This document shows positions 14,197-29,178 of a stretch of 35,194 nt of DNA, piece by piece (the first letter of the stretch is position 1; every line of letters starts with the position of its first letter). Position numbers and translations under genes: made by a program. This DNA comes from an uncultured archaeon (GTDB lineage: Archaea > EX4484-52 > LFW-46), in contig CABMCT010000011.1 of the NCBI GenBank assembly GCA_902384675.1, positions 1 to 35,194 on the forward strand. The letters are read 5' to 3'. The notes under the pieces were generated by a model. That model saw only the letters and a list, made by a program, of their open reading frames with translations, was not told the origin of the DNA and did not search any database.

Positions 14197-14310
14197 AGCC
14201 CTGGGCGCGAAATCCCCGCGCGAATCATGTTTTAAATAATGAAACGCGCGATTTGAACGCACGACCTTTACCTTACCAAGGTAACGCTCCACCAGCTGAG
14301 CTACCAGGGC
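14197..14310 (-). tRNA. tRNA-Thr(GGU) interrupted in the T-arm at 59/60; exon1 14252-14310, insert 14211-14251 (41 nt), exon2 14197-14210
   Basis: Minus strand GCCCUGG-UA-GCUC-AGCUGGUG-GAGC-G-UUACC-UUGGUAA-GGUAA-AGGUC-GUGCG-UUCAAA|[41 nt]|U-CGCGC-CCAGGGC-U. Acceptor, D, anticodon and T stems pair when the insert is removed; 73-nt mature length. Confidence 0.88.
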
Positions 14311-14433
14311 ACAATGTAGTGAATTCAAAAACATATGACACTTATTCCCTATATGTTTTGAATTCCCGCATTTCCGAAATGCTCACGCATTTCCTCATTT
14401 CGGAAATAAGGAAATACGGATAGTATTTCCGAA

Positions 14434-14472
14434 ATAGTCAATCCAATGAATCGATTGTTGTAAATTGACTAT
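14434..14472. repeat. Hairpin ATAGTCAAT...ATTGACTAT
   Basis: 9-bp perfect inverted repeat with an inner CAAT/ATTG stem. Confidence 0.6.
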
Positions 14473-15174: not shown

Positions 15175-15203
15175 CTTCCAACAGCGCCTTCGGCGGTTGG
15201 AAG
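15175..15203. repeat. Family Y palindrome, copy 1: CTTCCAAC-ag-CGCC-TTC-GGCG-GTTGGAAG
   Basis: Near-perfect inverted repeat between two co-directional genes. Confidence 0.7.
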
Positions 15204-15218
15204 TAAAGAGATGATTGA

Positions 15219-15449: not shown

Positions 15450-15489
15450 AGGCGGTTTTATTAAGATTTATTAACTTAAAATCAGGAAT

Positions 15490-15692
15490 ATATTCAACCG
15501 CACATCTTTTGATTATCAAGGATATTGCGCGGTTGAATATTTCCAACCATTTCAAAGCTTCGCTTTGAAAGCTTGCCGTAAGGCATGATTGATAATCGTC
15601 TTCGGGTTGGAAAGCTTGGAAATCTTCGATTTCCATGAGATAGCGAATTCAAGCATTAATAGAGGATACCTATAAAAAGTTCTTGAATCCGC
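15490..15692 (+). repeat. Family X element, copy 1 (stem A 15490-15501/15529-15540; Y-type insert 15540-15613; stem E 15643-15653/15682-15692)
   Basis: ATATTCAACCGC/GCGGTTGAATAT 12-bp perfect stem, followed by GCGAATTCAAG/CTTGAATCCGC (10 of 11 paired); sequence words shared with copies at 24033 and 27709. Confidence 0.72.
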
Positions 15693-15843
15693 TATAATAT
15701 CAGTTGGCCAATGCAGGGGTAGCCAAGCGGTCAACGGCGGTGGACTCAAGCAACAACTCGATTGCATTGAGTTATGAGCCGGCAACGGCGATGAAATAAA
15801 GAAATCCACTCTCCTAGCGAGTTCGAGGGTTCAAATCCGGTTT

Positions 15844-24025: not shown

Positions 24026-24032
24026 AATACTA

Positions 24033-24190
24033 TATTCAATTGCACATTATTTAATAGTTATGATATCGGCGATTGAATAAATCTTGGAAGTTCTTTACGA
24101 ACTTCCAAGATTTCCAACCCGGAGCAGTTGGCGAATGGTTGGAAATTGCGAATTTAAGCACATATTAGATATTTATCAATTCTTAAATTC
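24033..24190 (+). repeat. Family X element, copy 2, with Y-type insert
   Basis: Stem A TATTCAATTGC 24033-24043 / GCGATTGAATA 24069-24079 (one G-U); 15-bp hairpin AAATCTTGGAAGTTC-TTTAC-GAACTTCCAAGATTT 24079-24113; TTTCCAACC...GGTTGGAAA 24111-24145; stem E GAATTTAAG 24150-24158 / CTTAAATTC 24182-24190. Confidence 0.7.
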
Positions 24191-24239
24191 AGAGTATTTG
24201 CTTTTGAAGAAATAAATAAGGAGACAAATGCATAGAAAA

Positions 24240-27683: not shown

Positions 27684-27708
27684 ATATCAACAGGACTTGG
27701 GGAGGTTT

Positions 27709-27814
27709 ATAGTCAACCGCACATATTTTAATAACGTCATTATAACGCGGTTGGGTATTTAGTGAACTTGAGCATTCGTAAAAGACGTTATCAAAGGTTC
27801 TTAAGTTCACTAAA
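27709..27814 (+). repeat. Family X element, copy 3 (no Y insert)
   Basis: Stem A CAACCGC 27714-27720 / GCGGTTG 27747-27753 plus flanking pairs; stem E TTTAGTGAACTT 27758-27769 / AAGTTCACTAAA 27803-27814; loop complementarity ATAACGTC 27731-27738 / GACGTTAT 27784-27791. Confidence 0.72.
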
Positions 27815-29178
27815 TCTTGCCTTTTTCCGCTTAACCTGCAACCTCCTTACTTGTTCCATATGCAGTATTCTTTTGTTGATGAGGCGTTTAGTTCCAATAT
27901 CATGCCGCGCGTAAATGTCGTCGGAATTCTCGCTTGATATGCCTGAAAGCCCTTCCTCTGCGATTTCTTCGGCTTCTTCTATGGTGTTGGCAATGCCCAC
28001 AACTGCGATTGCTCTTGAACCCGTTGTATACAATTCGCCGCCTTCTTCATAGACTCCTGCATAATTAATATGCGCTCGCCCTGTATTTCCCACCATGATA
28101 GGTATTCCTTCTCTGCCATTTTCCGGGTATCCGCCAGGAACAACGTACTTGCAAACTGTGGCTTTTTTGGCAAATTTGATATTCTCAGAATTAAGTGTGC
28201 CTTTGGCAATGTTCATGCATACATCAAGGAAATCATTCTCAAGAAGCGGAAGAATATTCATGGCTTCCGGGTCTCCGAAACGCGCATTAAATTCAATAAC
28301 CGAGATACCATTATCGGTTGCCATAAACTGCCCGTAAAGTATGCCTTGATAGGGTGCGCCGGTTTCTTTCTTTATTGCATTTACCACGTCAGTCATTATC
28401 TTTTTTGATCACCGTAATCAGATTGTTTCATGAACGGCAAGATATCTTTCGAATCATTGTAAGAGCCCATTCCTCCTGTATTCGGACCTTTGTCGCCTTT
28501 TTTCAGCCGCTTGTGGTCCTGGACAGCCGGCGCAAACGCAAGCGATGTGCCGTCAACAAATGCCTGGACAGTGAATTCCTCGCCGATTAATTTTTCTTCG
28601 ATAACTAAATCGTCATTCTTTAAGATTTCCATTGCGTAAGTCTTTGCCCCGTCAAAATCAAAATGCTCTCCTGTTAATCTTACTCCCTTTCCTCCTGTAA
28701 GCCCTGCAGGTTTTATAACTGCGTCTTTACCAGAATCGTTTAGCTCATCGAGATACTTGCCAACATCATATAAGTTGTCCTCACCCTGCCTGAAAATGCG
28801 ATAGTCGGGACAGCCGGCGATCCCGTACTTTTTCATAAAATTGCGTGTCCACGCTTTATCGAATTCGATTTGCGCCGCAAGCTTTCTTGGGCCCACTACA
28901 GGGATACCTAAATTCCACAGAATGTCTGAAAGACCGTCAGCAAGCGGTGCTTCAGGCCCTATAATTGCAAGCTCGATTTTGTTTCTGGCGGCAAAATCGA
29001 GGACATCCGAATAATCCTCCTTGAAATTTTCCCCGACATAACATTCCTTGCATAGCTTCGCAATCCCGGGATTCCCATGATTCATCGCGGCATAAAGCTC
29101 GGGATTTTTCGCGCTCCTAGAAATAGCCTCGGCAATCGCATGTTCACGTCCTCCGCTCCCAACTAGAAGGACGTTCAT
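27791..29178 (-). pseudogene. purD: Phosphoribosylamine-glycine ligase (GARS) in two frames, split at an A6 run (+ strand T6 28401-28406)
   Basis: N-part MNVLLVGSGGREHAIAEAI...GGMGSYNDS..., C-part MTDVVNAIKKETGAPYQGILYGQFMATDNGISVIEFNARFGDPEAM...; one extra A gives CAA AAA AAG ATA ATG ACT and a continuous protein. Confidence 0.88.

Follow-up and report, generated by a model that had tools for sequence, protein, structure and literature searches.

According to our analysis, the interspersed hairpin pairs described here very probably constitute a family of non-autonomous, TA-targeting mobile DNA elements of a MITE- or REPIN-like kind, with a hairpin of its own at each end. The elements are about 85–250 bp in length, no coding content was seen in them, and their copies are dispersed and mostly intergenic. 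The starting point was a stretch of 35,194 nucleotides from an uncultured archaeon (hereafter, the window). The host assembly (~1.2 Mb, 89% complete, fragmented) contains at least 28 complete copies, a lower bound, with 150 of the 911 first-look candidates scored. Small palindromic mobile repeats are already known as a kind; the open-access literature searched yielded no account of the present family, nor of any double-hairpin TA element in archaea.

An earlier note on this DNA had reported three intergenic sites in the window at which a stem A is followed by a stem E. All three copies are real, with the same order and orientation of the stems, and lie where the note had placed them; their limits required correction, the bodies being bounded by TA dinucleotides (Table 1), apart from the right side of copy 3, where the dinucleotide is AA. 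They are not the whole set of the window, which also carries a fourth, diverged copy. The note had further proposed a search for more copies in the genome. A pattern scan followed by the retrieval of 20 stretches revealed many of them, all with the same plan, and a covariance model (CM) was built from a structural alignment of 11 compact copies, among which copy 3 is the only member from the window. The model produced 67 matches in the assembly, many of them overlapping or on opposite strands because the element is palindromic. The copy number given above was obtained by merging the model matches with those of the terminal inverted repeat (TIR) pattern.

Table 1. Elements of the family, their parts and neighbouring features (window positions unless a contig is given)
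Feature	Position	Strand	Basis or remark
Copy 1	15491–15694	+	Sequence; CM matches at 15485 (E 2e-5) and 15608–15702 (E 2e-7); empty site in sister species
Copy 1, hairpin A	15491–~15541	+	
Copy 1, hairpin E	~15645–15694	+	
Copy 1, left TIR, inner box CTTTTGATTA	15491–15515	+	TIR pattern, 2 mismatches
Copy 1, right TIR TAGCGGATTCAAGAACTTTTTATAG	15670–15694	-	TIR pattern, 3 mismatches
Copy 1, flanking TA	15489–15490 and 15695–15696		
Copy 2	24033–24194	+	Sequence; CM match at 24027 (E 5e-8); empty sister site; gene names
Copy 2, flanking TA	24031–24032 and 24195–24196		
Copy 3	27710–27812	+	Sequence; CM match 27704–27820 (E 1e-16); ORF 27791–28396
Copy 3, left TIR TAGTCAACCGCACATATTTTAATAA	27710–27734	+	TIR pattern, 1 mismatch
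Copy 3, right TIR TAGTGAACTTAAGAACCTTTGATAA	27788–27812	-	TIR pattern, 2 mismatches
Copy 3, left flanking TA	27708–27709		
Copy 4, diverged	14317–14471	-	CM match in the window (E 3e-4); sequence; empty sister site
Small hairpin modules	15542–15645, 24068–24145, 15185–15215, tRNA-Leu intron		
tRNA next to copy 4	14246–14310	-	
tRNA-Leu	15713–~15970	+	
purD (GARS)	27791–29178	-	
Sister-species copy L055	G001:C29:59355–59469		
Elements of relatives (L052, L056, L058, L162, L164)			Same architecture, different sequence

In the three window copies of the earlier note, hairpin A has the arms TATA(G/T)TYAAYCG and CGRTTGA(C/A)TA and a loop of ~25 nt with CACAT..TTTTGAT; a GAT junction joins it to hairpin E, which has the arms WGYGAATTYAAG and CTTRAATTCRCW and a loop with GCAC..TATCAAAAG. 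The compact form, to which copy 3 belongs, has A and E adjacent, with no extra hairpins between them. Such hairpins are present in copy 1 (TTTCCAACC..GGTTGGAAA and CTTGGAAAT..ATTTCCATGA) and in copy 2, which is composed of hairpin A, an inserted module and hairpin E. The diverged copy 4 has an A hairpin (TATAGTCAATTT..), two inserted TTTCGGAAAT-type hairpins and an E hairpin. Hairpin modules of the types TTTCCAACC..GGTTGGAAA and CATGGAAAT..ATTTCCAAGC turn up repeatedly within elements, introns and intergenic stretches, and the small modules may represent a second family of mobile palindromes nesting in the first.

The mobility of the element is apparent from the sister species (G001), whose orthologous sites lack it. 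The window is collinear with contig 40 of that genome at 67–80% identity, and the positions corresponding to copies 1, 2 and 4 show the flanking genes or tRNA in the sister species but lack the element. The sites of C55a and C14a are empty as well, which makes all five testable sites empty, and the model had no matches in the fetched syntenic stretches of the sister genome. The empty sites fit a single TA, the divergence being too high to place the junction to the base. TA flanks the element on the left in 19 of 22 copies, on the right in 21 and on both sides in 18, the background frequency of TA in the window being 5.4%. Left and right ends are imperfect inverted repeats of each other, TATAGYSAA-N9-TTTTGATAA, and both have the same spacing between the outer TATAGYSAA and the inner TTTTGATAA box. 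With up to three mismatches allowed, this pattern had 34 matches in the archaeon's own genome and 8 for the reversed control, and most of its matches fall at the paired ends of single elements. In addition, every end has an inverted copy further inside with which it pairs, and this creates two adjacent DNA hairpins, A and E.

Pairing within these hairpins is well conserved. Across 22 copies, standard pairs occupied 93.1% of the stem cells (82.4% after shuffling), double changes were observed in 59 cells with 19.6 expected in shuffles, and the covariation score was 0.321; shuffling lowered it to 0.152, and sliding the structures to 0.125 or less. Covariation is thus far above both controls and is strong in both stems, which confirms the stem pairing that the earlier note had described. 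The folding z-scores ranged from -4.4 to -6.8, and, whether folded as RNA or as DNA, both strands of two copies surpassed every one of the 200 shuffles.

A structured non-coding RNA family or a set of RNA regulatory motifs, transcribed and folded into two hairpins with a kissing-loop pseudoknot of CTTTTGATA with TATCAAAAG, could account for the strong stem covariation and the folding scores. It could also account for the complementarity of loops A and E (75% of cells paired in 11 copies, with some compensatory changes) and for an orientation bias of 15 to 3 relative to co-directional neighbours. We nevertheless consider it very improbable, and the observations speak for mobile DNA and against an RNA gene. 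If one strand were selected as RNA, G·U intermediates should be commoner on it than A·C ones; the stem mismatches are instead exactly strand-symmetric (11 G·T and 11 A·C), which means that wobble selection acts on no RNA strand. The compensatory changes that maintain A and E pairing are likewise equal on both strands, and both strands fold comparably. The RNA explanation is also at odds with the empty sister sites and with neighbouring genes that are inconsistent between copies. Rfam gave no match at gathering or E-value thresholds, in agreement with the statement of the earlier note that no named RNA family could be recognized. The pseudoknot itself was rejected, even though CTTTTGATA and TATCAAAAG are exact complements: the box is symmetric at the ends and reversed in two copies, C31b and C55d, where the inversion of loop E destroys the loop–loop pairing. 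The complementarity of the loops is explained by the inner TIR box, which both ends carry in mutually inverted orientation and with constant spacing, 12 nt from the outer hexamer. Of the "RNA or cruciform structure" that the note had proposed, the cruciform, or DNA, half is retained and the RNA half finds no support, owing to the equality of G·T and A·C, the equal folding of the strands and the empty sister sites.

The nested orientation flips are the oddest feature of the family. At three nested levels, what lies between the arms can be found in either orientation, and the alignment scores flip clearly at each of them. Loop E is inverted in two of the 16 compared copies (C31b and C55d). In the short form of loop E, C65 has the orientation opposite to that of C12, C29 and C54b. 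The inter-hairpin module of w1, C55d and G1_C55 is opposite to that of w2, C54b, C21, C21b, C55b and C55a. The flips may be passive, resulting from template switching or from recombination at short inverted repeats, or may be part of the movement mechanism.

Here we infer both the existence of a mobilising enzyme and its action. A transposase supplied in trans would recognise the folded hairpin ends, the TIR box or both, and the element would insert at TA, probably with TA duplication. The inner arms covary with the outer ones, something that a MITE with ordinary TIRs alone would not account for. The pairing may be kept because the hairpin is the substrate, an idea put forward for REPINs, or because template switching corrects the palindromes. 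Further hairpin modules could later be added at the A/E junction, and the enclosed segments could flip their orientation.

Candidates for the parent transposase were sought in the own genome and in those of the sister species and a further relative; none of the matches to Y1 (PF01797), IS630-type DDE_3 (PF13358) and IS4/5-type DDE_Tnp_1 (PF01609) had ends like those of the element. The sole Y1 found in the own genome is an IS605-type TnpA located beside TnpB, and it was rejected as the parent because its ends are unlike those of the element; the IS630-type element of the sister species was rejected for its different ends, and the IS4/5-type genes have neither a model match nor matching ends. 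A complete-looking IS605-type element with TnpA and TnpB (L063, G000:C57), with ends unrelated to the family, was observed in the own genome. No long autonomous copy was found in the own genome, where the TIR ends of the family all pair within 250 bp, except for a lone E end at C8:10020; the fragmented assembly may lack such a copy.

Within the mobile-element reading, the possibility that the family consists of MITEs of a cut-and-paste DDE transposase with a TA target (IS630/Tc1- or IS5-like) comes close to an even chance in our estimate. The inner arms would then be secondary and kept by palindrome correction in replication. Template switching at inverted repeats typically yields inversions of the enclosed content, and those observed here fit this scheme, as do the TA flanks and the bipartite TIR with fixed spacing at both ends. 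The ends also resemble the Correia repeat of Neisseria, TATAG[CT]GGATTAA, which is likewise TA-targeting (PMC2649163). However, no matching DDE element was found in the families and genomes searched, and the compensatory changes across subfamilies need frequent correction. In a second scheme, the family would be a REP, BIME or REPIN element that a Y1 (RAYT-like) transposase, recognising the hairpins, moves in single-stranded form; two inverted hairpin units with compensatory changes are also found in REPINs (PMC3116915). The sister genome has three Y1 transposases. We still regard this second sub-hypothesis as unlikely, because the only Y1 of the own genome has no element-like ends, none was found in G012 (the third element-bearing genome, 79% complete), and the ends begin with TATAG.. 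and not with the GTAG or CGTC tag of most REPs. In addition, TA on both sides suggests a duplication, and to our knowledge IS200/IS605 makes none.

The data do not separate a hairpin substrate from ordinary TIRs. An archaeal system that recognises the folded hairpin ends of a duplex, TA-targeting element, with terminal hairpins selected on both strands and nested segments actively flipped in movement, would stand between the single-strand transposition of REPIN/IS200 and TA-targeting DDE transposition; it is an improbable, though conceivable, solution. Far less credible are integron-like or invertase recombination sites, i.e., folded sites similar to attC. The first and last hairpin bases partly resemble RYYYAAC/GTTRRRY in some copies, and enclosed segments are indeed found inverted; however, the core motif is confined to TTCAACC-type copies, the copies stand singly between unrelated genes with no cassette array, and the empty sites show insertion of the site itself.

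The mobile family extends beyond its host. Five copies were found in the sister species, and related elements with the same architecture and a different sequence in G012, which belongs to another family of the order. A broader model gave weak matches in two more genomes of the genus of G012, so that, weak matches included, element-bearing genomes number five out of 34 in the order. The relatives keep the two-hairpin plan and TATAGTCAAYC-like ends and differ in the loop sequence. A search of the whole phylum came back with these same 34 genomes, and no model match was obtained in seven distant archaea. The matches of the DNA pattern in the genome collection and of the first viral pattern look like chance, having no model match, and two further viral patterns had zero matches.

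The genomic surroundings of the copies are varied. The E end of copy 1 lies ~17 nt upstream of the tRNA-Leu gene and the E hairpin of copy 4 ends ~7 nt upstream of a tRNA gene; both copies presumably sit between the tRNA and its promoter. A sister-species copy (L055) is located just upstream of an apparent intron-containing tRNA. The 5' flanks of tRNA genes may be favoured or tolerated as insertion sites. The tRNAs next to copies 1 and 4 were both missed by ARAGORN; the one directly downstream of copy 4 was found by Rfam, and tRNA-Leu apparently has two introns, in the anticodon loop and in the T loop, the latter being ~150–180 nt long and hairpin-rich here and ~35 nt long in the sister species. 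Copy 2 lies between the genes for a family-B DNA polymerase and GGGP synthase, and the window genes also include that for the archaeal DNA polymerase II large subunit, which, together with the GGGP synthase gene, confirms an archaeal source with a small genome. Hairpin E of copy 3 contains the stop codon (27791) of the downstream antisense C-terminal ORF of purD. This gene consists of two ORFs with a one-base overlap at 28396, one with the N and A domains and the other with the rest of A plus C, and represents either a split gene or a frameshift. According to crude gene calls, the 3' ends of genes run into the element with the stop codon inside hairpin E in several copies (e.g., copy 3, or w3, and C14a, C14b, C61, C25c). 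Relative to co-directional neighbours, 15 copies are oriented against transcription and three with it (p = 0.0075, post hoc and with the same crude gene calls).

Thus, an apparent RNA family has been recast as a family of mobile DNA. Even when the stems of scattered intergenic copies covary strongly, this alone does not speak for RNA, and the strand symmetry of G·T and A·C, together with empty-site tests, tells RNA and DNA families apart. Insertions of the family are found a short way upstream of tRNA genes and also at the 3' ends of genes, which then take their stop codon from the element. If the transposase reads the hairpin ends, the family would provide a natural set of compensatory variants for the study of hairpin-recognising transposition in archaea.

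Among known systems, the Correia elements (CREE) of Neisseria are a MITE family with a TA target; like the archaeal element they are short, non-coding, interspersed, foldable as hairpins and polymorphic in their presence between relatives (PMC2649163). Their ends begin with TATAG[CT]G(G/A)ATT, and the agreement in sequence is limited to these first bases of the TATAG[CT]GGATTAA... repeat. In CREE the two ends pair together, whereas in the archaeal element the partner of each end is the inner copy on its own side; nor was the CREE core, which has an IHF site, seen in this element. REPINs and BIMEs, mobilised by RAYTs, are also extragenic and combine two inverted palindromic units in one mobile entity, and compensatory changes and a possible two-hairpin ("clover") fold have been reported for REPINs (PMC3116915). 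The A and E hairpins, with inverted ends and boxes, form such a pair of units. Unlike REPINs, however, the archaeal element has no GTAG- or CGTC-type tag at the foot of the palindromes, its ends being TATAG/TATAT, and no cognate RAYT in its own genome, where the single Y1 is of the IS605 type; it has TA flanks and long AT-rich loops that carry the inner box. Prokaryotic MITEs, known among archaea in Sulfolobus and haloarchaea, are small, AT-rich, intergenic and of variable size, with TIRs, direct-repeat flanks and no coding capacity (PMC10969869). The family described here shares with them short, non-coding, dispersed multiple copies, imperfect TIRs at both ends of many copies, and mobility. 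It differs in that no parent IS was found for it among the three transposase families searched, and in its terminal double hairpins and nested modules that occur in both orientations.
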